64,000 bases of DNA. Origin: Curtobacterium sp. MCBD17_013 (lineage in GTDB: Bacteria; Actinomycetota; Actinomycetes; Actinomycetales; Microbacteriaceae). Under the pieces are notes generated by a model. It did not search any database. It worked only from the letters and a program-made list of their open reading frames with translations, and was not told the DNA's origin. Location: NCBI RefSeq assembly GCF_003234565.1, contig NZ_QKTU01000002.1:395810-459809 (forward strand). Reading direction: 5' to 3'. Positions 18,093 to 49,588 of the stretch are shown piece by piece (within the stretch, counting starts at the first letter, position 1; each line of letters opens with the position of its first letter). A program made the translations under genes and the position numbers.

Positions 18093-18503
18093 CTACGCCT
18101 CGGCGGCGGTCTCGTCGGTGGCGTCCGCGGCCGGAGCGGCCGGGGCCTGCTTCTCCGACTTCGGCTTGAGGACCGGCTTCTTCTTGTCGTCGGCGACGAA
18201 GGCCTGCTTCGGCTCGGCGGTCTTGACGGTGCTCGTCGCCGAGGCGTCGCCCTTGAACTTGCCCCAGTCACCCGTGAGCTTGAGGAGGGCGGCGACCTGC
18301 TCGGTCGGCTGCGCGCCGACGCCGAGCCAGTACTGCGCGCGGTCCGAGTCGATGTCGATGACCGAGGGCTCCTCGGTCGGGTGGTACTTGCCGATCTCCT
18401 CGATGACACGACCATCGCGCTTGGTGCGCGAGTCGGCGACGACGACACGGTAGTACGGCGCTCGGATCTTCCCGAGGCGCTTGAGGCGGATCTTGACAGC
18501 CAC
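18093..18503 (-). CDS. rpsP: 30S ribosomal protein S16
   Basis: Small-subunit assembly protein. The 136-residue product starts at GTG 18503 behind CAGGAGCAAAC and reads [26 protein letters not shown], then [12 protein letters not shown] and [19 protein letters not shown]. After residue ~85 it has a Lys/Ala-rich tail, longer than in E. coli but usual in actinobacteria. Confidence 0.97.
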
Positions 18504-18680: not shown

Positions 18681-20792
18681 TCAGGGAGCGAGCCGCCGGA
18701 CCGCTTCGAGCGCCTCCGTGGTCGCGCGGACCGCGTCCACCGAACGGGCGTCCCGCGCACCGCCGACGACCGCGAACGGCACCCCGGTCGCCGCGAGTTC
18801 CGACGCCAGGTCGCTCGACGCCTCCTGCCCGGCGCAGAGCACCACCGTGTCCGCGGGCACGGCGACCGGTGTGCCGTCCTCGTCGAGGATCCGGAGCACC
18901 CCGGGCTCGATCCCCACGTACTCGCGCACGCCTCCGATGAAGCAGACCCCCGCGTCCCGGAGACGGCCGAGCGCGACCCAGCGCGAGGTGATCCCCACAC
19001 CCTGTCCGAACTTGCCGGAGCGGCGGAGCACGGTCACGTCGGGCCCCGGCCGGAGCGTGCGGTCAGCGGCGGGTTCGCGCTGCGGCAGGTCACCGACGAG
19101 CCCGTCGAAGCCGTCGAGCCCCCAGCGCTCGTCGAACTCCGCGGCCCGACGCGACTCGTCGGGCGACTCCACGAGGAACGCGGCCGTGTCGACACCGATC
19201 CCACCGCCGCCGATCACGGCCACGCTGCCCGCGGGAACGCCGTGCCGGAGCGCCTGCTCGTACGTGACGACGTGCGGCAGGTCCGCTCCGGGGATCGTCA
19301 CCGTGCGGGGCACGACGCCGGAGGCGAGCACGACGCCGTCGCTGTCGGCGAGGTCGGCGGCGGTGGCGGTCCGGCCGAGCAGGACCTCCGCGCCGCGCTC
19401 GACGAGTTCCGCGTGCGCGGACCGGACCGGACCGGCGTAGTCCTCTTTCCCGGGGATGCGGGAGGCGAGCCCGAACTGCCCGCCGAGCTCGTCCGCGCGC
19501 TCCCAGAGTCGCACCCGGTGCCCGCGACGCGCCGCGTCGACGGCCGCCGCGAGACCCGCCGGTCCCCCGCCGACGACGTCGATCCGCTTCGGCTCGGCCG
19601 TCGGACGGACCGGGAACGCGACCTCACGAGCGGCCCGCGGGTTCACGAGGCACGACACCGGCTGACCGACGATCGACCGGTCGAGGCACGCCTGGTTGCA
19701 GCCGATGCACGTCGTGACCAGGTCGAACCGGCCGCGGAGGCTCGTGCCGACGATGGACGGATCGGCGAGGAACGGGCGGGCGAGGGCCACCGCATCGACG
19801 AGCCCGCGTTCGAGGACCGCCTCGACGTCGCGGAGGTCGGTCATGCGGTTCGACGCCAGCACCCGGACGTCCGGGCGGTCGGAGGAGCGCACGACGCGCG
19901 CGATGCGTTCGACGTACGACAGCCAGACACCGTGCGGCACGGCGGCCTGCACGGTCGGTACCCGGGACTCGTGCCAGCCGACCCCGACGCTGATGCCGTC
20001 GATCCCGGTCGGCAGCAGGTCGCGGACGAGTGCGTCGACGTCCTCCGGCGACGACGACCCCGGCATGAGGTCGACCCCGGACAGGCGGATCGTCACCGCG
20101 AGGTCCGGTACCGCGCTGCGGACGGCGCGCGCGACCTCCACGGCGAACCGCCGCCGACGCTCGGGGTCGCCACCCCATGCGTCGTCCCGCTGGTTCGTGA
20201 GCGGCGAGCAGAACTGGTTGACGAGGTAGCCCTCGGACGCCATGATCTCGACGCCGTCGAACCCGATGTCCCGGGCGGCCCGGGCCGCGTCGGCGAAGTC
20301 CTCGATCGTCCGGAGGACCTCGTCGTGGGTCAGCGCCTCGGGCACGACACCGCGCGCGGCCGCCCACGGCAGGGGCGACGGCGCGACGGCGCGCTGCGGC
20401 GCACCGTTCCGGTCCGTGAGCCCGGCGACCAGGGCGTAGCGACCAGCGTGGAAGAGCTGGGCGAGGATGGCGCCGCCCTCGGCGTGCACGGCGTCGACGG
20501 CGGTGCGGAAGCGGTCGTCGGTGTCCCCCACCCCGAACACCGCGAAGTCCGGGCCGCCGCGCGCCTCGTCGTTGACCGCGATGCCGCCGGTGATGAGCAG
20601 CGCCGCTCCCCCGGCGGCTCGCTCCCGGTAGAACGCGGCCATGCCGGCGCCACCGTCGTCGTGCACCTCGAGTCCGGTGTGCATGCTGCCCATCACGACA
20701 CGATGCGGCAACGTGATCGGACCGAGCGACCACGGGGTCGTGGTGACGGCGAGCGGTGCGGCGGTCGTCAGCGGTGTCGACGGGTCGGACAT
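18681..20792 (-). CDS. FadH-like 2,4-dienoyl-CoA reductase (old yellow enzyme + FAD domain)
   Basis: A 703-residue iron-sulfur flavoprotein. Residues ~15-350 are an FMN-binding old-yellow-enzyme barrel (LFHAGRYAL; FDGVEIMASEGYLVNQFCSP; RDDAWGGDPERRRRF). The 4Fe-4S cysteines follow as CIGCNQACLDRS...SCLVNP. Residues ~400 to the end are an NAD(P)H/FAD domain with GGGPAGLAAA and a second dinucleotide motif GGGGIGVDTAAFL. E. coli FadH, which reduces 2,4-dienoyl-CoA, has the same architecture and similar length. Here it is the last gene of a four-gene operon, 13 bases after the FabL-like gene, and is proposed to reduce a cyclohexadiene-carboxyl-CoA intermediate. Degradation of unsaturated fatty acids is the alternative. 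Confidence 0.85.
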   Translation of the reverse strand: MSDPSTPLTTAAPLAVTTTPWSLGPITLPHRVVMGSMHTGLEVHDDGGAGMAAFYRERAAGGAALLITGGIAVNDEARGGPDFAVFGVGDTDDRFRTAVDAVHAEGGAILAQLFHAGRYALVAGLTDRNGAPQRAVAPSPLPWAAARGVVPEALTHDEVLRTIEDFADAARAARDIGFDGVEIMASEGYLVNQFCSPLTNQRDDAWGGDPERRRRFAVEVARAVRSAVPDLAVTIRLSGVDLMPGSSSPEDVDALVRDLLPTGIDGISVGVGWHESRVPTVQAAVPHGVWLSYVERIARVVRSSDRPDVRVLASNRMTDLRDVEAVLERGLVDAVALARPFLADPSIVGTSLRGRFDLVTTCIGCNQACLDRSIVGQPVSCLVNPRAAREVAFPVRPTAEPKRIDVVGGGPAGLAAAVDAARRGHRVRLWERADELGGQFGLASRIPGKEDYAGPVRSAHAELVERGAEVLLGRTATAADLADSDGVVLASGVVPRTVTIPGADLPHVVTYEQALRHGVPAGSVAVIGGGGIGVDTAAFLVESPDESRRAAEFDERWGLDGFDGLVGDLPQREPAADRTLRPGPDVTVLRRSGKFGQGVGITSRWVALGRLRDAGVCFIGGVREYVGIEPGVLRILDEDGTPVAVPADTVVLCAGQEASSDLASELAATGVPFAVVGGARDARSVDAVRATTEALEAVRRLAP

Positions 20793-20805
20793 GGGCGCGA
20801 GGGTC

Positions 20806-21624
20806 CTACTCCGGCAGGACGGCGTCGCGCAGCGGCGACGTCGTGTCCGACCAGAAGGGCGGCGCGATGACGGTGAGCCCACCGTCGACCGACAGCACCT
20901 GTCCGGTGATGTAGGACGCCTTGTCCGAGAGCAGGAAGTCGACCGCGTCCGCCATGTCGTCCGGGGTGCCGGGCCGCTGCAGCGGCAGCTTCTCGAGCAC
21001 GGTGTGCATCGGGGCCTGACCGGGGACGTTCGAGTAGAAGTAGTCGAGCGAGTCGGTGTCGATGAGTCCGCCGTTGACCGCGTTGACGGTGATCTGCCGC
21101 GGACCGAACTCGACCGCCATGTACTTCATGTAGGACTCGGTCATCGCCTTCGCGGCGCCGAGCGCGGCGTACGTGGGGAACGCCCGCAGCGAGCCGTAGG
21201 ACGTGACGACGACGATCCGACCGCCGTCGTCCATGAGCTCCGCCGCGCGCTGGGCGCCGAGCACGAACGACCGCGCGTTGGTCGCGTAGCTGCGGTCGAG
21301 GTGGTGGAGCTTCAGCTCCTTGACGGCCTTGAACGCGCTGGCTGCCGCGTTCGCCACGAAGTAGTCGAGCCGTCCGTAGGTGTCGCGGACGACGTCGAAG
21401 AGCGCGTCGATGGACTCGGGCTGCTCGATGTCGACCTGGGCGGTGATGCCGTCACCACCGGCGGCCTTGACGTCGGCGAGCGACTCCTCGGCCAGGTCGG
21501 CGTTGCCCTTGTAGGTCACGACGACGGTGACGCCGCGCGCGCCGAGCTTCTTCGCGAGCAGGCGGCCGATGCCGCGGGATGCGCCGGTGATGACGGCGAC
21601 GGGTGCACTGGTGGTGTCGGCCAC
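20806..21624 (-). CDS. FabL/ChcA-like short-chain dehydrogenase/reductase
   Basis: A 272-residue NAD(P)H-dependent reductase. The classical SDR elements are present: cofactor loop TGASRGIGRLLA, NAAA after strand 4, and an S-x12-Y-x3-K-like region where Tyr lies in YAALGAAKAMTESYMKYMAVEFG. The stretch ITVNAVNGGLIDTDSLDYF closely resembles enoyl-ACP reductase FabL of Bacillus. SDR enoyl-thioester reductases of this kind include ChcA, the 1-cyclohexenylcarbonyl-CoA reductase of ansatrienin producers. GTG start follows AAGGAACC. In this operon it is the best candidate for the final ring enoyl-CoA reductions. An ordinary fatty-acid enoyl reductase is the alternative. Confidence 0.8.
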   Translation of the reverse strand: MADTTSAPVAVITGASRGIGRLLAKKLGARGVTVVVTYKGNADLAEESLADVKAAGGDGITAQVDIEQPESIDALFDVVRDTYGRLDYFVANAAASAFKAVKELKLHHLDRSYATNARSFVLGAQRAAELMDDGGRIVVVTSYGSLRAFPTYAALGAAKAMTESYMKYMAVEFGPRQITVNAVNGGLIDTDSLDYFYSNVPGQAPMHTVLEKLPLQRPGTPDDMADAVDFLLSDKASYITGQVLSVDGGLTVIAPPFWSDTTSPLRDAVLPE

Positions 21625-21716
21625 GGGGGTTCCTTGTCTCGCTGGTGCCGGCGCGTGCGCGCCGGTCGGGGGTGGGGCGGAGGTCACGCGGGTGGGACGG
21701 TCACGCTGGTGCTGAC

Positions 21717-21758
21717 GGTCGGGAGGCACGGGACGGGCCCGCCCCGCGCCTCCCGACC
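21717..21758 (-). other. Intra-operon stem-loop between acyl-CoA dehydrogenase and SDR genes
   Basis: GGTCGGGAGGC / GCCTCCCGACC, 11-bp perfect stem with a GC-rich 20-base loop, within the 143-base gap. It may terminate part of the transcripts so that the downstream reductases are made at lower level, or stabilise the upstream message. Confidence 0.6.
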
Positions 21759-21767
21759 GAGGTCATG

Positions 21768-22946
21768 TCAGAATCGCGCCTGCCCGGTGACGACCGCGCG
21801 GCCGACCACGAGCTTCTGGATCTCGTTCGTGCCCTCCTCGAAGCGCTGCGCACGGGCGTCTCGGTACACGCGCTCGATCGTGTTGCGCTTCCAGTAGCCG
21901 GATCCGCCGTGCACCTGCAGGGCCTTGTCGGTGACCCGCGCGAGCATGTCCACGGCGACCATCTTCGACGCGCTCGAGAGCGTTCCCGCGTCGGGGCGGC
22001 CCTCCTCGTAGGCGCGGGCGGCCTCGTACACCAGGGCCCGCGCGGCCGCGATGTCCGCGTAGTTCTCGGCGAGGTAGAACTGGATCGCCTGTCGGCTGCT
22101 CAGCTTCTTGCCGAAGGTCTCGCGGGTGTTCGCGTACTCGACGGCCAGTTCGTTCGCACGCTCGGCCAGACCGACGGCGCTCATCGCGACCGACACGCGG
22201 CTCGGCAGGAGGAACCCGCCGAGCGCGACCTCGAGCCCCTGGCCCTCCTCGCCGAGGCGCGCGGACACCGGCACCGGGACGTCGTGGAACTTGAGGATGG
22301 CGTGGTCGGTGCCCCGGATGCCCATGGTGTCCGAGTCGTCGATCACCTCGGCGCCCGGCAGACCCGAGTTCGGCATGAGGAACGCGACCGTGCCCTCCTG
22401 GCCCGTCGACCCCTCGAGCCGCGCCGCCAGCAGCCAGTAGTCGCACTTCACGCCGAACGTGATGAGGTGCTTCTCGCCGTTCATGACGTAGGTGTCGCCC
22501 TCGCGCCGGACGGTCGTGCGGATGTCCGCACCGGTACCCGCGGTCGCCTCGGTCAGCGTGAACGCCACGAGCGTGTCACCGGCGATCGACGGCTTGACGA
22601 CCTCTTCGAGCTGCTCCGGAGTCGCGTACGGCGCCATGGCGCGCCACGTGCCGTTGATGACGTGCACGAGCATGCGGATCGAGCCGTGGGAGCGCGAGAT
22701 GATCTCCATGATCTCGAGGTAGCGCGGGAACGGGATCCCACGACCGCCGAGCTCGACGGGCGCCGCCAGGCCCAGCCACCCACGCTCGCGCAGGTCCACG
22801 AGGACCTGCGGGGGGACCTGCCCGGTGCGCTCGATCTCGTTCGCGTAGTCCTCGCCGGGGCCGCGCACCCACGCGTCCACCTCGGCCTTGAGCTGCTGGA
22901 ACGCGTCCTCGTCGAACGGGGCCACGGTCTCGGTCACCTGCGTCAT
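21768..22946 (-). CDS. Acyl-CoA dehydrogenase
   Basis: A 392-residue FAD enzyme of the acyl-CoA dehydrogenase family. Visible are the FAD-binding AFTLTEATAGTGADIRTT, the MNGEKHLITFG strand, GGFLLPSRVSVAMSAVGLA, the QVHGGSGYWKRNTIERVYRDAR C-terminal signature and FEEGTNEIQ, whose Glu is the expected catalytic base (near residue 370). ATG overlaps the stop of the upstream fusion gene by four bases (ATGA), so the two are translationally coupled. In the proposed shikimate-to-cyclohexanecarboxyl-CoA route it would move or introduce ring double bonds next to the thioester. General acyl-CoA oxidation is the alternative. Confidence 0.88.
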   Translation of the reverse strand: MTQVTETVAPFDEDAFQQLKAEVDAWVRGPGEDYANEIERTGQVPPQVLVDLRERGWLGLAAPVELGGRGIPFPRYLEIMEIISRSHGSIRMLVHVINGTWRAMAPYATPEQLEEVVKPSIAGDTLVAFTLTEATAGTGADIRTTVRREGDTYVMNGEKHLITFGVKCDYWLLAARLEGSTGQEGTVAFLMPNSGLPGAEVIDDSDTMGIRGTDHAILKFHDVPVPVSARLGEEGQGLEVALGGFLLPSRVSVAMSAVGLAERANELAVEYANTRETFGKKLSSRQAIQFYLAENYADIAAARALVYEAARAYEEGRPDAGTLSSASKMVAVDMLARVTDKALQVHGGSGYWKRNTIERVYRDARAQRFEEGTNEIQKLVVGRAVVTGQARF

Positions 22947-25900
22947 GAGTTCTCCTTCTGGGCGACGAGCGCCGCGGCCTGCTCGCGCAGGACGTTCTTC
23001 TGGACCTTGCCCACCGCGTTCCGCGGCAGTTCGTCGATGTACTCGAGCCGCTCCGGCCAGTAGTACTTCGACACGTTGGCGTGCTCGAGGTACTGCTGCA
23101 TCGCACCGAAGTCGAGGGTCTCGTCGTCACGCGACGACACCACGAACGCGCAGGCACGTTCCCCGAGTCGCTCGTCGGGCATCGCGACGATCGCGACGTC
23201 CGTGACGAGGGGGTGCTGGTACAACAGGTTCTCGATCTCGACCACGGGGATCTTCTCACCGCCGCGGTTGATGACGTCCTTCACCCGGCCGGTGATGCTG
23301 AGGAACCCCTTGTCGTCGATCCGCGCGAGATCGCCGGTGCGGTACCACCCGTCCGGGGTGAACACGTCGTCGGTGAGGTCGGGGCGGTCGAGGTACCCGT
23401 CGAACATCGTCGGCGAGTGCAGCTCGAAGTTGCCCTCGCTCCCCACCGGGAGCTCGGCGCCCTCGTCGTCGACGATGCGCAGGCGGATGCCCGGCAACGC
23501 GCGCCCGTCGTGCCCGTATGCGTCCGCCGGGTCGTCGCTCGGGCTCGAGAGCGCGCCGAGGCAGGTCTCGCTCGTGCCGAAGGCGCCGAGGATCGCGCTC
23601 CCGAGCACCGTCGCGGCGCGCTGCGCGAGCGCGCGTGGGACCGCGGCGCCCGTGGGCACGAAGATCCGCAACGACGCGGGCTGCTCGGCCCCGGCCTCGA
23701 CGAGGTCGACGAGGTCGGTCAGGAACGGCGTCGCGCACTGCACGAACGTCGCCCCGGCCGCCCCGAACGCCTGGTCGAGCGCCACGCGGCCGTCCCAGAC
23801 GGGCTGGATCACCTGCGCGACGCCGAGGCGGAACGCCAGGAGCATGCCGTAGAGGAACCCGGTCTGGTGTGCCAGCGGCGACGGGATGTAGATGCGGTCC
23901 TGGGCACCGAGGCCGGTCTGCGCGACGTGCATCGCGGTGGCCAGGCCCAGCGTCCGGTGCGGGTGCTGGACGCCCTTCGGCTCCCCCGTCGTCCCGGAGG
24001 TGAACAGCAGCTGGCAGATGTCGTCCGGACCGGGCGACATCGAGCGGATCTGCGCGGTGTCCGGTTGGACCGACTCGAGCGCGGTGTCGTAGTACCGCCA
24101 GTTCCACTCGGAGGCGTCGACGCGGTCCATGGCGTCAGCGGGCATCGGCGGCAGGTTCGTCGGGGTGTCCTGGTGCCCGCGGGCCTCCGACCGCAGGACC
24201 ACGACGTGCTCGACCGCGAGCCGACGGTTCTGCGCAGCGGCCTCGTCCACCACGTCGAGCAGCTCGATCGCGGGCCGGCGCTTGCGGAACACGTTCGGCA
24301 GGAACACGACGCGGGCACGCGACCGCGCGAGCGTCATGGTGGTCTCACGCGGTCCGAACACCGGCATGATCGGGGTCGCGACGGCGCCGATCTGGACCGC
24401 GCCGAGCGTGATGGCGACGAACTCCCGCCAGTTCGGCAGCTGCATCGCGACCGACTCGCCCTTGCGCACGCCGAGCTCGAGCAGGAGCGCGGACACCTGG
24501 TCCGCCTCGTCCTGGAGCTGCTTCCACGTGGTCGTGACCGCGGCCGGTCCGCCGACCTCGATCACCGCGGCTCCGTCGGGGTCCGACTCGGCGAGTGCCC
24601 GGACGCGCTCGCTGAGCACGAGCGGCTCGGCGTCGATCCCCGCCGGGACCGCGGTCTCCTCGGCGGCGACGGCGCCGAGGTCCTCGGCGGCGTCCTCGGG
24701 GTCGAAGCCCTCGGCGGAGTCGGCCGCGGCGAGCGCCGCGGTGGCATCCCCGACCTCCATGTCGAGCCCGACCGAGTTCATCGCCTCGAGGAACGTCGGG
24801 TAGGAGATGCGGTACGCCCTCGGGTAGGTGAGCGCGGACACGCCGTCGGCCTTCGACGCCGCGACGGCGAGCGACATGAGCACGCGGTGGTCGTTGAACG
24901 ACGACATCGGCGATCCGGTGAGCTGCTGCACCCCCGTGACGCGGAGCTCGTCCGCGCCCTGCTCCGCGCGGCCCCCCATCCGGTTCAGCTGCAGCATGGC
25001 GGCGACGCGATCGGACTCCTTGAGACGGATGTGCGCGACGTTCCACAGGCGGCTCGTGCCCTCGGCGAAGGTCGCCATGGTGGACAGGACGGGCAGGAGG
25101 TCCGGGATCGGTTGGCAGTCGATGTCGAGTGGCCGGAGCGGCGAGCCGTCGTGCGTGATGCGCACGAACCCGGTCTCCTCGTCGATGCGCATCGGGACGC
25201 CCATCGCGGTGGCGAGGTCGAGGAACTCGCTCTCGGGGTGGTCGGTGTCGGCGGTCCGGAACGAGGTCATCCCACGCAGGAGCACGTCCGATTCGCGGAT
25301 GCCCGCGGCGGCGATCCCGAATGCGGCCGAGCCGATGTCCGGCGGGATGACGTAGTCGTGCGGCGTCGCGCGCTGGTTCGCCGGCACGCGGTACTCGAGC
25401 CAGTCGTCCGAGACCTCGACGGTCAGTCCGAACTGGCGCATCATCGCGACCGTCAGCTCGACGTAGGGCTGCTCGTTGAGGCGGCCGCCCGTGATGTGGA
25501 TGCGGGTCTCCTGCTCGGCGAACGGGGCGACCAGGAGCAGTCCGGAGACCCACTGCGACAGGGTGCCGGCGATCGAGACGTCGCCACCGCGCGGCCGTCG
25601 GGGCTGCACGGTGATGGGCGGGCAGTCGTTCGTCGCCTCGAGTTCGACGCCCATCTGCGTGAGCGAGGTCAGGAGCGCCTTGATCGGGCGCCGCTGGAAG
25701 TACTTCATGCCCGTGAGCGTCATCGGGCGGTCGGCGAGTGCGGCCAGGCCCGTCATGAAGTAGAGGGTGGTCCCGGACGAGCCCATGTTGAGCAGACCGT
25801 CGGCGCCGCGGGAGCCGTGGTCGACGACGTCGGTGGCGACGTAGCGACCGCCGAGCCCCGTCACGAGGTAGTCGTTGCCCCGTCGCACGATGTCGACACC

Positions 25901-26080
25901 GAGCGCCCGCAGCGTCCCGACCGTCCACTCGACCTGCCGTGTCGTGCTGATGCCCGACACGACGCTGGTGCCCTCCGCCAGTGATGCGAGGACCAGCGCT
26001 CGATGCGCGTGGTACTTGGACACGGGGATGTCGAGTTCCCCGACGAGGGGTGCGGATGTCCCGCGGACGACCAGCTGCAT
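22943..26080 (-). CDS. EPSP synthase-like domain fused to acyl-CoA/AMP ligase domain
   Basis: One uninterrupted 1045-residue protein. Residues 1-445 match the AroA fold: SKYHAHRALVLASLAEGTS, GSSGTTLYFM, LSQWVSGLLLVAPF, IPPDIGSAAFG, IRLKESDRVAAM, FNDHRVLMS and SYPTFLEAM. By eye against E. coli AroA, shikimate contacts K22, R27, D313 (D248 here), E341 (E355) and K340 remain, but PEP-binding R100, R124 and K411 become Y107, Y127 and I425, and S23 becomes Y23. An acidic Ala-rich linker (~446-490) leads to an adenylating CoA-ligase domain (~490-1040): FTSGTTGEPKGV, WYRTGDLARIDDKG, GRVKDVINRGGEKI and catalytic Lys in PRNAVGKVQK. ATG at 26080 follows TGAGG. First gene of the four-gene operon; proposed to dehydrate shikimate and activate the acid as CoA ester. 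Confidence 0.88.
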   Translation of the reverse strand: MQLVVRGTSAPLVGELDIPVSKYHAHRALVLASLAEGTSVVSGISTTRQVEWTVGTLRALGVDIVRRGNDYLVTGLGGRYVATDVVDHGSRGADGLLNMGSSGTTLYFMTGLAALADRPMTLTGMKYFQRRPIKALLTSLTQMGVELEATNDCPPITVQPRRPRGGDVSIAGTLSQWVSGLLLVAPFAEQETRIHITGGRLNEQPYVELTVAMMRQFGLTVEVSDDWLEYRVPANQRATPHDYVIPPDIGSAAFGIAAAGIRESDVLLRGMTSFRTADTDHPESEFLDLATAMGVPMRIDEETGFVRITHDGSPLRPLDIDCQPIPDLLPVLSTMATFAEGTSRLWNVAHIRLKESDRVAAMLQLNRMGGRAEQGADELRVTGVQQLTGSPMSSFNDHRVLMSLAVAASKADGVSALTYPRAYRISYPTFLEAMNSVGLDMEVGDATAALAAADSAEGFDPEDAAEDLGAVAAEETAVPAGIDAEPLVLSERVRALAESDPDGAAVIEVGGPAAVTTTWKQLQDEADQVSALLLELGVRKGESVAMQLPNWREFVAITLGAVQIGAVATPIMPVFGPRETTMTLARSRARVVFLPNVFRKRRPAIELLDVVDEAAAQNRRLAVEHVVVLRSEARGHQDTPTNLPPMPADAMDRVDASEWNWRYYDTALESVQPDTAQIRSMSPGPDDICQLLFTSGTTGEPKGVQHPHRTLGLATAMHVAQTGLGAQDRIYIPSPLAHQTGFLYGMLLAFRLGVAQVIQPVWDGRVALDQAFGAAGATFVQCATPFLTDLVDLVEAGAEQPASLRIFVPTGAAVPRALAQRAATVLGSAILGAFGTSETCLGALSSPSDDPADAYGHDGRALPGIRLRIVDDEGAELPVGSEGNFELHSPTMFDGYLDRPDLTDDVFTPDGWYRTGDLARIDDKGFLSITGRVKDVINRGGEKIPVVEIENLLYQHPLVTDVAIVAMPDERLGERACAFVVSSRDDETLDFGAMQQYLEHANVSKYYWPERLEYIDELPRNAVGKVQKNVLREQAAALVAQKENS

Positions 26081-26305: not shown

Positions 26306-27445
26306 ATGGACATCGCGTTCACGTCGTCACGACCGTCCACGATCGGGATCGAGTGGGAGCTGCCGCTCGTCGATCGCACCACCGGCGACCTCACGCCGCG
26401 GGCGCCCGACGTGCTCCTCGCGGTGCGGGAGCGGTTCGGACACGACCGGGTCACGAACGAGCTCCTGACGAACACCGTCGAGGTCGTCTCGGGCGTCCAC
26501 GACACCGTCCGCGACGCGGTCCGCGACCTGGCCGGCATCGTGAGCGCGGTGCGCACGGCCGCTGACGTGCTCGACACGGACGTGATGTGCTCGGGCACGC
26601 ACCCCTTCGCGCAGTGGGACCAGCAGGAGGTCACGCCCGACAGTGAGCGGTACACGACCCTCATCGACCGCACACGCTGGTGGGGTCGCCAGATGCTCAT
26701 CTGGGGCGTGCACGTCCACGTCGGCATCGACGACCGCGAGAAGGCCCTGCCGATCCTCAACGCGATGCTCGCGTCCGTGCCACACCTCCAGGCGCTGACG
26801 GCGTCCAGTCCCTACTGGGCCGGCGTCGACACCGGCTACGCCTCGAACCGGGCGCTCATGTTCCAGCAGCTGCCGACGGCGGGACTCCCCCCGCAGTTCG
26901 GTGCGTGGGCGGACTACGAGGAGATGGTGGACGACATGGTGCGCACCGGTGTCGTGGACGACCACACCGAGTTGCGCTGGGACCTCCGACCGTCGCCGAA
27001 GTGGGGGACGCTCGAGAACCGCGTCTCGGACGGCATCAGCACGGCGCACGAACTCGCCGCGGTCGCCGCGCTCGTGCAGTGCCTGGTGACCGAGGCGTCC
27101 GATCGGTTGGACGCCGGGGAGACCCTCCCCACCATGCAGCCCTGGTTCGTGCGCGAGAACAAGTGGCGTGCGGCTCGGTACGGGATGGAGGCGGAGATCA
27201 TCGTGGACGCCGCCGGTGACGAGCGCCTCGTGTCCGACGACGTCCGCGACCTCGTCGTACGACTCGAGCCCGTCGCCGAGCGCCTGGGGTGCCTCGAGGA
27301 GCTCCACGGGCTCGACCGCGTCCTCGAGGAGGGCGCGTCCTACCAGCGGCAGCTCCGCGTCGCGGCAGAGCACGAGGACGACATGCGGGCCGTCGTCCGG
27401 TCCCTGGTCACCGAGCTCGGGGAGAGCATCGACGCGGTGCTGTGA
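26306..27445 (+). CDS. YbdK-type carboxylate-amine ligase (glutamate-cysteine ligase family 2)
   Basis: A 379-residue member of the GCS2/YbdK family, which have weak gamma-glutamyl-cysteine ligase activity; the physiological substrate in actinobacteria is unknown. Recognised by STIGIEWELPLVDRTTGDL at the N-terminus, MCSGTHPFAQW, the metal/substrate motif WGVHVHVGIDDREKAL, SSPYWAGVDTGYASNRALMF and the C-terminal MQPWFVRENKWRAARYG. ATG at 26306 follows GAAAGG. It is transcribed away from the cyclohexyl operon and ends at a bidirectional terminator facing ffh. Confidence 0.88.
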   Translation: MDIAFTSSRPSTIGIEWELPLVDRTTGDLTPRAPDVLLAVRERFGHDRVTNELLTNTVEVVSGVHDTVRDAVRDLAGIVSAVRTAADVLDTDVMCSGTHPFAQWDQQEVTPDSERYTTLIDRTRWWGRQMLIWGVHVHVGIDDREKALPILNAMLASVPHLQALTASSPYWAGVDTGYASNRALMFQQLPTAGLPPQFGAWADYEEMVDDMVRTGVVDDHTELRWDLRPSPKWGTLENRVSDGISTAHELAAVAALVQCLVTEASDRLDAGETLPTMQPWFVRENKWRAARYGMEAEIIVDAAGDERLVSDDVRDLVVRLEPVAERLGCLEELHGLDRVLEEGASYQRQLRVAAEHEDDMRAVVRSLVTELGESIDAVL

Positions 27446-27496: not shown

Positions 27497-29053
27497 CTAC
27501 CGGTTCAGGAACTTGCCGAGCGCGGCCATCTCCTCTTCGGTGGGCGCCTTCGGGTTCTTCGCACCGCCGAGCCCGAAGCCACCGCCGGTCGGCGCCGTCG
27601 GCGCCTGCGGTCCGGACGCGATGGCCGCGTTCTGCGCAGCGCGCTTGGCCGGGTTGCCCGCCTTGGACCCCTTCTTCTTCGGCTGCTGCCGCTTGCCCGC
27701 GTAGGACGCACCGGGAACCGGGCCCATGCCGGGCACCTGGGGGACCCCGCCCTTGGCGACCGTCTTCATCATCTTCGCGGCCTGCTCGAACCGGTTCACG
27801 AGCTGGTTGACCTCGGTGACGGTCGACCCGGCACCGCGCGCGATCCGCAGGCGACGGGACCCGTTGAGGATCTTCGGCAGCGCACGCTCCTGCGGCGTCA
27901 TCGACTGGATGATCGCCTCGGTCCGGACGATCTCGCGCTCGTCGAAGGAGTCGAGGGCCTCGCGCATGCCCTTCGCGCCGGGCAGCATGCCGAGCATGCT
28001 CTTGATCGACCCCGCCTTGCGGAGTTGCTGCATCTGCTTGAGGAAGTCGTCGAGCGTGAACGAGTCGGTCGCGATCTTCTCGGCGACCTTGCGGGCTTCG
28101 TCCTCGTCGAAGGCCTGCTGCGCCTGCTCGATCAGCGACAGGACGTCACCGAGGTCGAGGATGCGGCTGGCCATGCGGTCGGGGTGGAACGGCTCGAAGT
28201 CGTCGAGGTTCTCGCCCGTGGACGCGAACATGATCGGTCGGCCCGTGATGCTGGCCACCGACAGCGCGGCACCACCGCGGGCGTCACCGTCGAGCTTGGA
28301 CAACACGACGCCGGTGAAGTCGACGCCCTCTTGGAAGGCGCGCGCGGTCGCCACGGCGTCCTGACCGATCATCGCGTCGATGACGAACAGGACCTCGTCC
28401 GGGTCGACGGCCTTGCGGATGTTCGCCGCCTGCTTCATGAGCTCGGCGTCGACGCCGAGCCGCCCGGCGGTGTCGACGATGACGGTGTCGAACTGCCGGT
28501 CCACCGCGACCTTCATCGCGTTCTTGGCGACCTTGACCGGGTCCCCGACGCCGTTGCCCGGTTCCGGCGCGTAGACCTCGACGCCGGCCTGCTCGCCGAC
28601 CACCTGGAGCTGCGTGACCGCGTTCGGCCGCTGCAGGTCCGCGGCGACGAGCATCGGGGTGTGGCCGTCCTTCTTGAGCCACTTGCCGAGCTTGCCGGCG
28701 AGCGTCGTCTTGCCCGCGCCCTGGAGGCCCGCGAGCATGATGACCGTCGGCGGGCGCTTCGCGAACTCGAGGCGGCGCTGCTGGCCGCCGAGGATCCCGA
28801 CGAGTTCCTCGTTGACGATCTGGACGACCTGCTGGGCCGGGTTCAGCGCCTTGTTGACCTCGTCCGACAAGGCGCGTTCGCGGACCGACGCCGTGAACGA
28901 CTTGACGACCTCGAGCGCCACGTCGGCGTCGAGCAGGGCGCGCCGGATCTCACGGACGGTGCCGTCGACGTCGGACGGGGTGAGTCGACCCTTGGACCGC
29001 AGGTTGCGGAAGGTCTCGGTGAGCCGATCGGAGAGTGTGCCGAATTGCGCCAT
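27497..29053 (-). CDS. ffh: Signal recognition particle protein Ffh
   Basis: GTPase that with 4.5S RNA targets membrane proteins to FtsY and SecYEG. The 518 residues have the N-terminal helical bundle, the G domain (GLQGAGKTTLAGKL, AADLQRPNAV, VDTAGRLGVD, SKLDGDARGGAALS) and the Met-rich M domain (FLKQMQQLRKAGSIKSMLGMLPG, SRRLRIARGAGST). A Lys/Gly/Pro-rich tail of ~80 residues follows, typical of actinobacteria. ATG is 9 bases downstream of a TAGAAT box. Confidence 0.97.
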   Translation of the reverse strand: MAQFGTLSDRLTETFRNLRSKGRLTPSDVDGTVREIRRALLDADVALEVVKSFTASVRERALSDEVNKALNPAQQVVQIVNEELVGILGGQQRRLEFAKRPPTVIMLAGLQGAGKTTLAGKLGKWLKKDGHTPMLVAADLQRPNAVTQLQVVGEQAGVEVYAPEPGNGVGDPVKVAKNAMKVAVDRQFDTVIVDTAGRLGVDAELMKQAANIRKAVDPDEVLFVIDAMIGQDAVATARAFQEGVDFTGVVLSKLDGDARGGAALSVASITGRPIMFASTGENLDDFEPFHPDRMASRILDLGDVLSLIEQAQQAFDEDEARKVAEKIATDSFTLDDFLKQMQQLRKAGSIKSMLGMLPGAKGMREALDSFDEREIVRTEAIIQSMTPQERALPKILNGSRRLRIARGAGSTVTEVNQLVNRFEQAAKMMKTVAKGGVPQVPGMGPVPGASYAGKRQQPKKKGSKAGNPAKRAAQNAAIASGPQAPTAPTGGGFGLGGAKNPKAPTEEEMAALGKFLNR

Positions 29054-29062
29054 GGTCCCGCG

Positions 29063-29068
29063 ATTCTA
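29063..29068 (-). promoter_or_regulatory. Candidate -10 box (TAGAAT), ffh
   Basis: TAGAAT, 9 bases before the ffh ATG; predicted transcription would start within a few bases of the start codon. Confidence 0.45.
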
Positions 29069-29126
29069 CGCGCCGGACCCGTGCCGTGCCTCCCGGCCCG
29101 CCCACCGCGGGCGCGCGCGCCGGTCC

Positions 29127-29288
29127 TCAGGCGCGACGACCGGTGACGAGGCGCACCAACCACCCGATCACCGCGATCACGAGCACGACGATCCCGATCC
29201 AGAGCAGGATGCGCAGGGCTGCGCCGAGCAGACCGACGACCAGCAGGACGATGCCGACGATGATCGCGATGGTGAGGAGCCAGCGCAT
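29127..29288 (-). CDS. Small two-helix membrane protein
   Basis: A 53-residue protein of unknown function. It consists of MRWLLT followed by two hydrophobic stretches (IAIIVGIVLLVVGLLGAALRIL and LWIGIVVLVIAVIGWLV) and a basic end VRLVTGRRA. The ATG at 29288 has an excellent ribosome site (CGGAGG, 6-base spacing), which supports translation. Similar 50-60 residue proteins with Leu/Val/Ile helices occur widely in actinobacteria, often as stress-related membrane peptides, but no function can be claimed. It is divergent from the molybdopterin hydroxylase gene. Confidence 0.75.
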   Translation of the reverse strand: MRWLLTIAIIVGIVLLVVGLLGAALRILLWIGIVVLVIAVIGWLVRLVTGRRA

Positions 29289-29421
29289 GAGAGCCTCCGG
29301 GTCGAGCCGACGGCCGGGCGACCGCCCGACCACCGTCGACGCTAGCCCCGCGGGCGCGAGCTGTCCGGGAGTAGAAGGGTTCGAGATCGCCGCGCAGGTG
29401 GTCGTGGACGAGGCGGTGCGC

Positions 29422-31614
29422 ATGGAGTCGGTGGACGAGCAGCGACGTGGACCGGTGCTCGGCGCGCCCCTCCCGAGGGTCGAGGGCGCCGACAAGGTCC
29501 GCGGACGGGCTCGGTACGCCGCCGAGACCGGCGGCGAGGACGTCGCCTGCTACGCGTGGGTCGTGCAGGCCGCGATCGCACGCGGCCGGGTCGTGGCGAT
29601 CGACCGGGAGGCGGTGCTCGCCATGCCGGGGGTCGTCACCGTGATCGCGGCCGACGACGCACCACGGCTCACCGCCGTCCCGACGACCGAGCTCTTCGTG
29701 CTGCAGAGTGACCGCGTCCACTACCGGGGCGAACCGGTCGCGCTCGTCGTCGCGGAGACCTTCGAGACCGCGCGGGCGGCCGCGGCCGCGCTCCGGGTGA
29801 CCTACGACGCCGAGCCGGCGGACACGGTGTTCCCCGACGAACCGTCCTTCGGTCCGGACGACGCCCCCGGGGTGTTCGTCGCCCCGGAGTCGATCAACGG
29901 CGACCTCGAGCCGGACACCGACCAGGGCGACCTCGACCGCGCGCTCGCCGACGCGGACGTCGTCCTCGACGCGACCTACACCACGCCGCCCCAGGTCAAC
30001 AACCCGCTCGAGCCGCACGCCGCGACCGCGTGGTGGGTCGGCCCGTCGCGCGAGCAGGACGAGGACGGTCGACCGCGCGCCGCTGCCGGCGCCCGGCTCG
30101 AGCTCATCGAGGCGACGCAGGGGCCGTCCCTGGCCGCGGGTGTGGTCGCCGACCTGTTCGGCATCGACGACAGCGCGGTCCGGCTCCGCGCCGAGCACGT
30201 CGGCGGCGGGTTCGGCTCGAAGGGCTCGCCGAAGCCCGATCTGCCCCTGGCCACCATGGCCGCACTCGTCACCGGCCGTCGTGTGAAGCTCGTGTTCACG
30301 CGGCAGATGGTGTTCTCGATCGGTGGCTACCGCACGCCGACCGCCAGCCGGATCCGCCTCGGAGCGCGTCCGGACGGCACGCTCACCGCGATCGGTCACG
30401 ACGTCCGCACCCAGACCTCCACGATCGGCACGTTCGTCGAACAGGTGGCGGACTGCACCCGCCACGTGTACGCCGCACCGAACCGCCGCACCTCGCACCG
30501 GTACGTCGCACTCGACGTGCCGACACCCCGCTTCATGCGCGCTCCCGGAGAGGCACCCGGGAGCTTCGCGCTCGAATCGGGGATGGACGAGCTCGCCGCC
30601 ACGCTCGGCATCGATCCCGTCGAGCTCCGCCTCCGGAACGAGCCGGACGTCGACCCGATCGACGGGGCGGCGTTCAGCACCAGGAACCTCGTCGGGTGCC
30701 TCCGCCGGGGGGCGGAGCTGTTCGGGTGGGAGGCCCGTGGGCGCGAGCCGCGCATGCGTCGCGACGGACGGTGGCTGGTGGGCGCGGGTGTCGCCGCCGC
30801 CTACTACCCCGCTCGCGTCGTCCCGAGCGGAGCGACCGTCACCGCCGAGGCGGACGGGACGTTCACCGTCGGCGTCGCCGCCTCGGACATCGGGACCGGG
30901 TCCCGCACCGTGCTCCTGCAGGTCGCGGCCGATGCCCTCGAGGTCGGGGTGGACCGCATCCGCATGCACATCGCCGACTCGACGCTCCCGCAGGCCGCGC
31001 TCGGTGCGGGGTCGTTCGGGACGACCTCGTGGGGATGGGCGGTCGACAAGACCTGCCGCTCGTTGCGAGAGCGACTCGAGCGCGGAGCGGTCGTGCCGTC
31101 CTCCGGTCTCTCCGTGACGGAGCGGACCGACGACGACGTGCAGCACCTCGCGGAGCGGTCGCGGCACGCGTACGGCGCGCAGTTCGTCGAGGTCCGCGTG
31201 GACACGGACTCCGGCGAGGTACGGGTCGACCGCATGGTGGGCGTGTTCGCCGCGGGCCGCATCTACAACGCCCGCACGGCCCGAGCGCAGCTCGTCGGTG
31301 GGATGACGTGGGGCATCGGCATGGCGCTGCACGAGGACGCCGAGATCGACCCCGTGGCGGGCGACATCGGCAACCACGACCTCGCCACGTACCACGTCGC
31401 GACGAACGCGGACGTGGAGTCGATCCACGCCGAGTGGCTCGACGAACCCGGCGAGGACCTCACGCCGCTCGGCGGCAAGGGGATCGGGGAGATCGGGATC
31501 GTCGGTGCTGCCGCGGCGCTGGCGAACGCCGTCTGGGACGCGACCGGCGTGCGGGTCCGTCGCCTGCCGATCCGACCGGACGCCCTCGTCGATCGGATGC
31601 CGGCCCGAGCCTGA
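29422..31614 (+). CDS. Xanthine dehydrogenase family molybdopterin-binding subunit
   Basis: A 730-residue large subunit of the xanthine oxidase/aldehyde oxidoreductase family, which hydroxylates aldehydes or N-heterocycles at a molybdenum-pterin site. Seen are the N-terminal LPRVEGADKVRGRARYA, substrate-domain HYRGEPVALVVAET, molybdopterin-binding HVGGGFGSKG and RAPGEAPGSFALESGMDELA, and GGKGIGEIGIVGAAAALANAV with the active-site Glu. PaoC/YagR-like enzymes have this length. The FAD and 2Fe-2S subunits that normally sit next to it are absent in the window, so it is an orphan whose partners must be elsewhere or lost. The frame is intact. ATG at 29422 follows a GAGG. Confidence 0.88.
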   Translation: MESVDEQRRGPVLGAPLPRVEGADKVRGRARYAAETGGEDVACYAWVVQAAIARGRVVAIDREAVLAMPGVVTVIAADDAPRLTAVPTTELFVLQSDRVHYRGEPVALVVAETFETARAAAAALRVTYDAEPADTVFPDEPSFGPDDAPGVFVAPESINGDLEPDTDQGDLDRALADADVVLDATYTTPPQVNNPLEPHAATAWWVGPSREQDEDGRPRAAAGARLELIEATQGPSLAAGVVADLFGIDDSAVRLRAEHVGGGFGSKGSPKPDLPLATMAALVTGRRVKLVFTRQMVFSIGGYRTPTASRIRLGARPDGTLTAIGHDVRTQTSTIGTFVEQVADCTRHVYAAPNRRTSHRYVALDVPTPRFMRAPGEAPGSFALESGMDELAATLGIDPVELRLRNEPDVDPIDGAAFSTRNLVGCLRRGAELFGWEARGREPRMRRDGRWLVGAGVAAAYYPARVVPSGATVTAEADGTFTVGVAASDIGTGSRTVLLQVAADALEVGVDRIRMHIADSTLPQAALGAGSFGTTSWGWAVDKTCRSLRERLERGAVVPSSGLSVTERTDDDVQHLAERSRHAYGAQFVEVRVDTDSGEVRVDRMVGVFAAGRIYNARTARAQLVGGMTWGIGMALHEDAEIDPVAGDIGNHDLATYHVATNADVESIHAEWLDEPGEDLTPLGGKGIGEIGIVGAAAALANAVWDATGVRVRRLPIRPDALVDRMPARA

Positions 31615-48220: not shown

Positions 48221-49588
48221 TCACCCGGCAAAGTCGAAGTCCGCGCCGAGCTTGCGGAGCTTCGGGATGAAGTGCTCGTACCCACGGCTGATGATGCCGA
48301 CGTTCGTGATGTGCGACTCACCACTGGCGGTGAGCGCGGCGATGAGGTGGCTGAACCCGCCCCGGAGGTCGGGCACGCGCACGTTCGCGCCGTGCAGCGG
48401 CGTGGGTCCGGTGATCACCGCGGCCTGCTCGAAGGGACGACGAGCGACTCGACGGTCGTGGCCGGGCAGTCCCTCTTTGTGCACGACGATGTCCGCACCC
48501 ATCTCGTTGAGCGCGTCCGTGAACCCGAACCGGTTCTCGTACACGGTCTCGTGCACCACGCTGCGGCCCTCGGCCTGCGTCAGTGCCACGACGAGCGGCT
48601 GCTGCCAGTCCGTCATGAACCCGGGGTGGACGTCGGTCTCGATGACGACGGGCTTGAGCACCTCGACCTCGCGGTAGAAGCGGATGCCGTCCTCCTGGAT
48701 GTCGAACCCGCCGCCCACCTTGCGGAAGACGTTGAGGAAGGTCATGAGGTCCTGCTGCTTGGCACCCTCGACGAAGATGTCACCGTTCGTGGCGAGTGCG
48801 GCGGCGGCCCAGCTGGCGGCCTCGTTGCGGTCGTTGATCGCCCGGTGCGTGTACCCGCGCAGCTTCTCGACGCCCTCGATGAAGATCGTCCGGTTCGGCT
48901 CGACGGAGACGACGGCGCCCATCTTCTGCAGGATCGCGATGAGGTCCATGATCTCGGGCTCGATCGCGGCGTTCCGCAGCTCGGTGACACCCTCGGCCAG
49001 CACGGCGCTGAGGAGCACCTGCTCGGTCGCGCCGACGCTCGGGTACGGCAGTTCGATGTTCGCGCCCTTGAGACCGTTCGGTGCCTCGAGGTGGATGCCG
49101 GCGACCTGCTTGTCCACGACGGCGCCCATCGCGCGGAGCGCGTCGAGGTGGAAGTCGATCGGGCGGTCGCCGATGCGGCAACCGCCGAGGTCGGGGATGA
49201 ACGCCTCGCCGAGCTTGTGGAGCAGCGGACCGCAGAACAGGATCGGGATGCGGCTCGACCCGGCGTGGGCGTCGATCTCGGCGAAGTGTGCGCTCTCGAC
49301 GTTCGAGGGGTCGAGGATGAGCTCGCCACGGGCAGGATCGCTGATCCGGACGCCGTGCACCTCGAGCAGGCCCCGGACGACCTTGACGTCGCTGATGTCC
49401 GGCACGTCGCGGAGGATCGAGGGTGTGTCGCCCAGCAGCGCGGCCACCATCGCCTTGGTCGCGAGGTTCTTCGCGCCGCGGACCTCGATGCGTCCCACGA
49501 GCGGCTTGCCGCCGCGGATGACGATCTCGTCCGACTTGAGACCGACGCGAGCGCCTGCAGCCGCTGCGTCCTGTACGAGAGAGTTCAC
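48221..49588 (-). CDS. murA: UDP-N-acetylglucosamine 1-carboxyvinyltransferase
   Basis: First committed step of peptidoglycan synthesis, adding enolpyruvate from PEP to UDP-GlcNAc. The 455 residues carry the substrate-binding RGAKNLATKAM (the K-N pair) and the catalytic loop LGGCRIGDRPID with Cys137, the fosfomycin target. GTG start abuts the leuD TAA without a gap. Contrast with the EPSP-synthase-like fusion at 22.9-26.1 kb: this one keeps all family residues seen. Confidence 0.95.
   Translation of the reverse strand: MNSLVQDAAAAGARVGLKSDEIVIRGGKPLVGRIEVRGAKNLATKAMVAALLGDTPSILRDVPDISDVKVVRGLLEVHGVRISDPARGELILDPSNVESAHFAEIDAHAGSSRIPILFCGPLLHKLGEAFIPDLGGCRIGDRPIDFHLDALRAMGAVVDKQVAGIHLEAPNGLKGANIELPYPSVGATEQVLLSAVLAEGVTELRNAAIEPEIMDLIAILQKMGAVVSVEPNRTIFIEGVEKLRGYTHRAINDRNEAASWAAAALATNGDIFVEGAKQQDLMTFLNVFRKVGGGFDIQEDGIRFYREVEVLKPVVIETDVHPGFMTDWQQPLVVALTQAEGRSVVHETVYENRFGFTDALNEMGADIVVHKEGLPGHDRRVARRPFEQAAVITGPTPLHGANVRVPDLRGGFSHLIAALTASGESHITNVGIISRGYEHFIPKLRKLGADFDFAG

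Follow-up and report, generated by a model that had tools for sequence, protein, structure and literature searches.

A four-gene operon in the genome of Curtobacterium sp. MCBD17_013 likely converts shikimate to cyclohexanecarboxyl-CoA, the primer for membrane omega-cyclohexyl fatty acids; judging from sequence comparisons, we give this reading a probability of roughly three in four. The initial annotation had assigned all four genes to this supply. The conversion is supported by Streptomyces loci with AHBA genes, by the presence of the cassette in C. pusillum, by the separation of its EPSP-like domain from AroA, and by the residue spacing of its short-chain dehydrogenase/reductase (SDR), whereas a dedicated role of the FadH protein is not.

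Organization of the operon

The four genes were located on the minus strand at positions 18681-26080 of the window, i.e., the whole 64,000-nucleotide stretch that was analyzed. They encode an EPSP-synthase-like/acyl-CoA-ligase fusion (22943-26080, 1045 aa; PF00275 at residues 10-435, PF00501/PF13193 at 498-1026), an acyl-CoA dehydrogenase (ACAD)-family protein (21768-22946, 392 aa; PF00441, PF02770, and PF02771) predicted to be a ring enoyl-CoA reductase or desaturase, an enoyl-reductase-type SDR of the FabL/ChcA type (20806-21624, 272 aa, GTG start) predicted to be a 1-cyclohexenylcarbonyl-CoA reductase, and a full-length homologue of the 2,4-dienoyl-CoA reductase FadH (18681-20792, 703 aa) with an OYE (Oxidored_FMN) and an FAD/NAD (Pyr_redox) domain. 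No internal stops were found in the four reading frames. The fusion and ACAD genes overlap by 4 bases, followed by gaps of 143 and 13 bases, so that the gene set, single strand, and spacing first described for this locus were borne out by the coordinates and domain searches. None of the four genes encodes a hydratase, hydroxyacyl dehydrogenase, or thiolase, and the operon contains neither a fatty acid synthase gene nor a dedicated FabH or isomerase.

The operon is flanked by rpsP, encoding 30S ribosomal protein S16 (18093-18503, minus strand; PRK14520 above cut-off), and, on the far side, by a YbdK-type glutamate-cysteine ligase gene (26306-27445, plus strand; PRK13517 above cut-off) followed by ffh (27497-29053, minus strand). 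The flanking genes that were scanned were housekeeping or molybdenum oxidoreductase genes, with no polyketide genes among them.

The EPSP-synthase-like domain

The fusion comprises an EPSP-synthase-like domain (residues ~1-440; 24761-26080, minus strand), a disordered linker (~445-485), and an acyl-CoA ligase (~490-1040); in its predicted structure, both domains are mostly modeled with confidence, and confidence is low for the linker between them. The fusion exceeded the cut-off of the aroA model TIGR01356 (311.8 vs 287.25), and its counterparts in relatives are annotated as enzymes of an amino-acid pathway. Since it scores above this curated threshold, a misannotation has likely been exposed. 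A separate AroA (331.8 vs the same cut-off of 287.25) is encoded upstream of the window, and the genome also has a MurA. The gene at 48257-49516 was also considered as the true aroA and rejected, as it encodes MurA.

The EPSP-like domain has the same fold as AroA and most of its catalytic-core residues (K22, R27, R124, Q171, D313, K340, E341, R344, H385, and R386), but differs in its clade, in altered substrate-contact positions, and in its fusion to a ligase here. Assessed as an AroA by clade and by retention of all substrate contacts, it failed on both counts. In a tree with 32 AroA rows, nine of which were flagged for unusual composition, it formed a clade apart from AroA with 100/100 support. 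Tyr23, Ser94, Tyr100, and Glu197 (E. coli numbering) were near-fixed in the family, at positions presumably contacting shikimate-3-phosphate/PEP, while the other contact positions were kept; K411 was left out owing to ambiguous alignment, and positions 169 and 170, which vary among AroA themselves, were not used. Of 201 family rows, 198 contained the motif SKYHxHRA, as against 0 of 32 AroA; 80 of the family rows came from a scan using that motif as one of two patterns. The domain is accordingly named here as a predicted shikimate-binding dehydratase. Unfused EPSP-like proteins occur in Herbiconiux.

CoA ligase, dehydrogenase, and reductases

The ligase half was closest to TIGR03208, cyclohexanecarboxylate-CoA ligase (427.9, below the cut-off of 792.3). 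The best NCBIfam matches of the ACAD-family protein included acryloyl-CoA reductase (233.6) and cyclohexane-1-carbonyl-CoA dehydrogenase (190.0), both far under cut-off, and the protein failed the cyclohexanecarboxyl-CoA dehydrogenase model TIGR03207 (136.3 vs 575.35). The shortfall against TIGR03208 and TIGR03207 may arise because these models describe degradation enzymes; such sub-threshold scores give no positive proof of substrate. Among ordinary fatty-acid oxidation families, no curated cut-off was passed by the ACAD-family protein (23 families) or by the SDR (best 25 of 231 families).

The best NCBIfam match of the SDR was FabL (225.5 vs a cut-off of 328), and its best PDB match was 3oic, an NADPH enoyl-ACP reductase. 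In a loose pattern search, all 73 loci with the SDR showed a Y-x6-K spacing, which we take to be the enoyl-reductase motif of SDRs, and none showed the Y-x3-K[AG] pattern.

The best PDB match of the FadH protein was the 2,4-dienoyl-CoA reductase 1ps9 (E 1.1e-148, residues 19-694), and at E 1e-15 the genome had no other full-length match. Of the 70 loci with the gene, 69 showed the Fe-S cysteine pattern. Within the genus, 25 of 60 genomes lacked an ACAD match, and in each of the 15 of these that were read (15/15) the FadH gene was kept, with no in-frame stop in the aligned stretches (one locus, L114, aligned in two pieces); a 16th stretch (G064, L118) turned out to carry the cassette. The protein matches E. 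coli FadH over nearly its full length; it differs in being a member of the cassette operon, yet it is kept alone in cassette-less congeners. Because FadH is retained where the other three genes are lost, we rejected it as a dedicated part of the pathway in this genus; it is shared with general metabolism.

Comparison with known cyclohexanecarboxyl-CoA systems

Cassettes of the ans/chc type encode an EPSPS homologue, a CoA ligase, an acyl-CoA dehydrogenase, a ChcA-type SDR, and a further reductase together, and the ansatrienin genes of Streptomyces collinus for cyclohexanecarboxyl-CoA are ansJKLM plus chcA. The window operon encodes this gene set. It resembles the S. collinus system, as generally described, in keeping the same five functions together; it differs in lying between rpsP and the glutamate-cysteine ligase gene and in its predicted use for lipid. 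No S. collinus record was among the 80 loci listed. Four other Streptomyces loci (L065, L066, L075, and L104) carried the cassette with identical gene order and common upstream genes, at 47-64% identity per protein or domain to the window cassette. At L065, the sole locus whose upstream families were typed, these genes encode a DegT aminotransferase, an AHBA-associated HAD protein (349.1 vs the TIGR01454 cut-off of 246.65), and a class-II DAHP synthase ending ~150 bases ahead of the fusion, i.e., AHBA synthesis. The same cassette thus stands beside AHBA (ansamycin) genes, as expected for an ansatrienin-type supply of cyclohexanecarboxyl-CoA. Additionally, the cassette has FabF-type ketosynthases as neighbors in those loci of Streptomyces, Acidothermus, and Eremiobacterota that were tested, and a type I PKS as a neighbor in Actinoplanes, which fits primer supply.

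The predicted product and precursor are also those of omega-cyclohexyl fatty acid synthesis in Alicyclobacillus, a genus not named among the matches listed. An origin of these acids from shikimate was reported in 1972 (De Rosa 1972, by its title in the references of PMC3035248), and in the portions of the literature found the lipid was recognized by chemistry alone.

Proposed pathway and alternative functions

In the proposed pathway, the EPSP-like domain would bind shikimate without a 3-phosphate and drive the first 1,4-elimination of water, and the fused ligase would convert the acid to its CoA ester. The ACAD-family protein, SDR, and FadH may then alternate dehydrations with enoyl/dienoyl-CoA reductions, removing the remaining hydroxyls, after which a FabH would condense cyclohexanecarboxyl-CoA with malonyl-ACP. 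The balance would be shikimate (C7H10O5) - 3 H2O + 4 x 2H -> cyclohexanecarboxylate (C7H12O2). As seven steps face four proteins, some proteins must act repeatedly or unlinked enzymes (e.g., an isomerase) must help. A group on contig C34, comprising an extra FabH, an enoyl-CoA hydratase, a dienoyl-reductase-like SDR, and FabF, was considered as a source of the missing FabH and isomerase partners and rejected, since no more than 4 of the 60 genomes of the genus had its hydratase at E 1e-60, and one of these, G074, is cassette-less. The EPSP-like domain offers a defined target for showing the first dehydration of shikimate, and the cassette may be a compact source of starter for doramectin-type and ansatrienin-type compounds.

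The surplus of chemical steps over proteins, the PKS and AHBA genes adjoining the cassette in some relatives, and the lack of a fatty acid synthase gene in the operon would also suit synthesis of another shikimate-derived acyl-CoA (cyclohexenyl-, dihydroxycyclohexane carboxyl-, or benzoyl-CoA) or supply of an unlinked secondary metabolite instead of membrane lipid. We consider this rather unlikely, because the Microbacteriaceae cassette occupies an old site beside rpsP with the scanned flanks free of polyketide genes, and because omega-cyclohexyl acids are reported for C. pusillum and C17:0 cyclohexyl may occur in Herbiconiux.

Degradation of a ring acid, either cyclohexanecarboxylate or a plant acid resembling shikimate, through CoA activation and dehydrogenation is very unlikely. 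The operon ligase belongs to the AliA/BadJ-type family as its best NCBIfam match, the ACAD-family protein matches cyclohexanecarbonyl-CoA dehydrogenase models, and plasmid proteins named aliA or cyclohexanecarboxylate-CoA ligase were 36-39% identical to the ligase half. However, the ligase scores below cut-off, the SDR and FadH are of the reductase type, the degradation partners are missing from the four genes, and the setting in relatives, with AHBA genes adjoining the same cassette, is biosynthetic; to our knowledge, EPSP-like domains have no role in degradation. Plasmid-borne spread of the fusion was rejected, as none of 32 matching plasmid records covered 80% of it; in the 20 of the 32 that were listed, every match lay in the ligase half. 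An additional EPSP synthase, for aromatic amino acids or glyphosate tolerance, joined by accident to a fatty acid ligase is a scarcely credible reading of the fusion: it passes TIGR01356 and keeps the core residues from K22 to R386, but Tyr23, Tyr100, and Glu197 are family-wide, the clade is its own, the genome already has AroA and MurA, and the ACAD and SDR genes accompany the fusion.

Distribution and genomic site of the cassette

Of 80 relatives fetched, spanning two phyla (Actinomycetota and Eremiobacterota), 68 have all four genes in this order, indicating that the arrangement is not due to chance. Of the remaining 12, five lie on contigs that break off early (L031, L035, L050, L058, and L098), one (L080) lies on a contig ending 1.5 kb past the SDR gene, two Cellulomonas loci (L083 and L086) lack the SDR gene, and four micrococcal loci (L094, L095, L097, and L101) lack the FadH gene. 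This spread points to omega-cyclohexyl lipids in more organisms than those few so far named as producers. SKYHxHRA plus a linked dehydrogenase and SDR provides a gene signature for the omega-cyclohexyl lipid that would allow its prediction from genomes alone.

The cassette does stand between rpsP and ffh, as the initial annotation stated in describing an interruption of a conserved region, but it appears to be no newcomer to the site. It lies between rpsP and the same glutamate-cysteine ligase gene in Frondihabitans (L041), Humibacter (L055), and one MAG (L045), and 0.2-2.5 kb from rpsP in Gryllotalpicola, Lacisediminihabitans, and two Microbacteriaceae MAGs. Since the rpsP-side site is common to other genera, it appears ancestral, with loss as the likely origin of the shorter loci in congeners. 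In Curtobacterium, the fusion, ACAD, and SDR genes were lost together, near-completely; the YbdK-type ligase gene was found in 59 of 60 genomes. Carriers in the genus include C. pusillum ATCC 19096 (L026), which we take to be the type strain, and C. flaccumfaciens LMG 3645 (L033), for which we know of no report of omega-cyclohexyl lipids.

Fatty acid profiles of carriers and relatives

A literature search, mostly without subscription papers, returned no title or abstract opening on genes for omega-cyclohexyl fatty acids and no lipid data for the strain studied here. The expectation that some Curtobacterium contain these acids agrees with a report on C. pusillum (Suzuki 1981, as cited in the available parts of PMC5023266 and PMC3426160), whose strain ATCC 19096 carries the cassette. 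For Herbiconiux, the accessible text of PMC10011130 states that "Cyclohexyl-C17:0 may be present".

Published lipid profiles do not all fit the omega-cyclohexyl reading. For the carrier Subtercola lobariae, C18:1 and the cyclohexyl acid were both absent in the tables seen of PMC5945732, and 52.1% summed feature 8 was given elsewhere (PMC9287328). The major acids of Lacisediminihabitans profunda were only iso/anteiso in the part of PMC7033078 available; the genome compared here was that of its congener L. changchengi (L051), which carries the cassette.

Subtercola endophyticus and Rathayibacter soli, type strains that both carry the fusion, are reported to contain 51-77% "C18:1 omega7c" by MIDI. 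This component is perhaps misnamed omega-cyclohexyl-C17:0. We tentatively propose, at somewhat less than even odds for the two parts jointly, that one entire EPSP-fold branch, at present labeled AroA, dehydrates shikimate independently of phosphate and opens a cyclohexane-ring lipid route in Actinomycetota, Eremiobacterota, and Steroidobacteraceae, and that the "C18:1 omega7c" of carriers such as these two is omega-cyclohexyl-C17:0 misnamed by the MIDI library. If the latter is true, corrections are due to the fatty acid profiles published for several Microbacteriaceae.

Organization of the cassette and families of its products

The cassette comprised four minus-strand genes, together spanning 18681-26080, which encode an EPSP-synthase-like/acyl-CoA-ligase fusion (22943-26080), an acyl-CoA dehydrogenase (ACAD, 21768-22946), an SDR (20806-21624), and a FadH-like reductase (18681-20792), with the spacing given in the initial annotation (one 4-base overlap, then gaps of 143 and 13 bases). 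It is flanked by rpsP on one side and, on the other, by a gene for a YbdK-type glutamate-cysteine ligase followed by ffh. The GC content of the cassette (0.718) is close to that of the window (0.715), and thus carries no compositional sign of recent arrival. Based on the EPSP-like domain, the closest relative was Curtobacterium ammoniigenes (94% identity). Additionally, a plus-strand gene adjoining ffh (29035-31614) encodes a PaoC-like molybdenum aldehyde oxidoreductase scoring under its family cut-off.

In the fusion, PF00275 precedes an AMP-binding ligase. Its predicted structure (mean pLDDT 85.3, pTM 0.55) contained two mostly confident domains, matching EPSP synthases and acyl/aryl-CoA ligases, respectively, and a disordered linker at about residues 445-485. 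The top family of the ligase half was TIGR03208 (cyclohexanecarboxylate-CoA ligase), with a score of 427.9, below the cut-off of 792.3. The top family of the ACAD was acryloyl-CoA reductase, and cyclohexanecarbonyl-CoA dehydrogenases were also matched, all far under cut-off; in the PDB, it matched acyl-CoA dehydrogenases, with the caffeyl-CoA reductase CarC in fourth place. The SDR was closest to FabL, under cut-off, and the FadH-like protein matched 2,4-dienoyl-CoA reductase (1ps9) over nearly its full length (E 1.1e-148).

Distinction of the EPSP-like domain from AroA

The EPSP-like domain exceeded the curated cut-off of TIGR01356 (aroA; 311.8 vs 287.25), and its relatives are named 3-phosphoshikimate 1-carboxyvinyltransferase by NCBI. 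The same genome encodes a separate AroA (L001, upstream of the window; 331.8) and MurA, and by TIGR01356 score it would seem to hold two EPSP synthases. Phylogenetic analysis of 38 cassette-type together with 32 AroA sequences placed the two groups on opposite sides of a branch with 100/100 support. Residues were counted at positions numbered after E. coli, gaps excluded, for 201 cassette-type sequences (80 loci, 120 proteins, and the window) and 31 AroA sequences. Position 23 was Tyr in 198 of 198 cassette-type sequences and Ser in 29 of 31 AroA, although this column is partly selected, as the 80 loci were fetched with two patterns, one of which spans it. Position 100 was invariably Tyr (201/201) in the former and Arg (31/31) in the latter; position 94 was Ser in 200 of 201, compared with Asn (23), Leu (7), or Asp (1) in AroA; and position 197 was Glu throughout (201/201), where AroA mostly has Pro or Ser. 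Judged from these sequences, the EPSP-like domain is not AroA.

In EPSP-synthase structures, positions 23 and 197 contact shikimate-3-phosphate and position 100 is situated towards PEP. Binding of the 3-phosphate would be disfavoured by an additional carboxylate at 197. The cassette-type sequences retained K22, R27, R124, Q171, D313, K340, R344, H385, and R386 wherever a letter was present, and E341 in 200 of 201. The domain may therefore keep the acid-base machinery while binding unphosphorylated shikimate; such a model does not account for the retained PEP-side arginines, which would accommodate a step that uses PEP or phosphate.

Distribution and genomic settings

Scanning of genomes yielded 253 matching stretches; 240 were relatives, and the best 80 of these were analyzed. 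The complete four-gene set was present in 68 of the 80, always in identical order and with both fusion halves in one frame (68/68). Five of the 12 incomplete loci stop at a contig edge, and L080 stops 1.5 kb past the SDR gene; four loci of Arthrobacter and its kin (L094, L095, L097, and L101) were without the FadH gene. In two Cellulomonas loci (L083 and L086), no SDR gene was found between those for ACAD and FadH. Carriers among the loci listed included Curtobacterium, Frondihabitans, Subtercola, Gryllotalpicola, Humibacter, Kocuria, Acidipropionibacterium, Streptomyces, Actinoplanes, and Eremiobacterota MAGs, and unfused EPSP-like proteins occurred in Herbiconiux, Steroidobacteraceae MAGs (P0305, P0332, and P0341), and others. 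Alicyclobacillus was absent from the matches listed (best 80 of 240 scan relatives and the protein hits listed).

Four Streptomyces loci (L065, L066, L075, and L104) shared the genes directly upstream of the cassette. In L065, the only one typed, these encode a class-II DAHP synthase, whose gene stops some 150 bases short of the fusion, together with an AHBA-associated HAD protein that exceeded its cut-off and a DegT aminotransferase. This combination is typical of ansamycin AHBA clusters; among AHBA compounds, ansatrienin is the one that bears cyclohexanecarboxylate. A ketosynthase-family protein flanked the cassette in 14 of 40 loci compared (Streptomyces, Acidothermus, Solirubrobacterales, Eremiobacterota, and Actinoplanes). 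Among the four typed, those of L067, L090, and L093 matched FabF (the first two over cut-off), and that of Actinoplanes L085 was a type I PKS. These neighbourhoods fit the supply of an acyl-CoA starter. Whereas the L065 cassette adjoins AHBA genes, as would be expected of ansatrienin-type clusters, that of the window adjoins rpsP and the gene for the glutamate-cysteine ligase.

History within Curtobacterium

Of 35 other congeners, 22 matched the fusion at E 1e-150, compared with none of 23 genomes from other genera of the same order. Among 60 genus genomes (the window strain and one same-species genome counted), 35 had the ACAD and 36 had the SDR. In all 15 ACAD-less genomes read (of 25; L105-L117, L119, and L120), the FadH gene was still in place, with rpsP to one side and the gene for the glutamate-cysteine ligase to the other; one of these genomes (G074) retained the SDR alongside it. 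The 65% complete genome G026 held pieces of the fusion with no ACAD match. The cassette had been described as interrupting a conserved ffh-rpsP region. It does lie between these genes, but its site is common to other genera and FadH was left behind in the cassette-less genomes read, so that loss within the genus agrees better with the data than repeated gain. This retention also suggests another use for the FadH gene in Curtobacterium; the operon copy is the sole full-length match of its kind in the strain's genome.

Reported lipids of carriers and relatives

C. pusillum is cited as a producer of omega-cyclohexyl fatty acids in passages of PMC5023266 and PMC3426160, and strain ATCC 19096 carries the cassette. 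For Herbiconiux, a passage of PMC10011130 states that 'Cyclohexyl-C17:0 may be present'. In Table 2 of PMC9287328, summed feature 8 ('C18:1') makes up 76.7% in Subtercola endophyticus AK-R2A1-2 (fusion P0066), and neither C16:0 nor C18:0 was detected. For Rathayibacter soli SW19 (fusion P0088), Table 2 of PMC11294650 gives 50.8% feature 8, a value assigned to feature 9 in the text, compared with 5.6% and 3.2% for a pair of reference strains. In these tables, the two cassette-bearing type strains have 51-77% 'C18:1' and nearly no straight-chain saturated acids. Feature 8 is also counted as a major acid in the account of Herbiconiux daphne, which has an unfused EPSP-like protein (P0272), and C18:1 is given as major for Frondihabitans in PMC5945732. 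We suspect, as a guess, that omega-cyclohexyl-C17:0 perhaps elutes as, and is misnamed, 'C18:1' or feature 8; a literature search on such co-elution found nothing. Against it, reported values include 40.4% feature 8 with 30.2% feature 3 in S. frigoramans and 11.8% in S. boreus, neither named among the 120 fusions listed, only some of which bear names, and 28.1% in Herbiconiux aconitum, not named among the unfused proteins listed. The carrier S. lobariae (fusion P0069) has 52.1% in PMC9287328 vs no C18:1 in the table of PMC5945732, and Lacisediminihabitans profunda is described without such an acid in PMC7033078.

Proposed pathway

The pathway first proposed, from shikimate to cyclohexanecarboxyl-CoA, is very likely correct on the present genomic comparisons, and the window very likely holds a known kind of cassette, here in a probable lipid setting. 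The four-gene cassette and the AHBA and ketosynthase settings speak for it; its site is corrected as described, and a dedicated role for FadH falls away in this genus, since FadH outlasts the cassette. By arithmetic, conversion of shikimate (C7H10O5) to cyclohexanecarboxylate (C7H12O2) takes the loss of three H2O and four two-electron reductions, and therefore the four proteins must each be used more than once or be assisted by other enzymes. Six enoyl-CoA hydratase/isomerase and five KAS III matches were present in the genome. On contig C34 of the same genome (L151, 4859-10183), genes for an extra FabH, an enoyl-CoA hydratase, a 2,4-dienoyl-CoA-reductase-like SDR, and FabF lie together. The FabH/hydratase/FabF group was rejected as a helper because its hydratase occurs in just 4 of the 60 genomes of the genus, including one that lacks the cassette.
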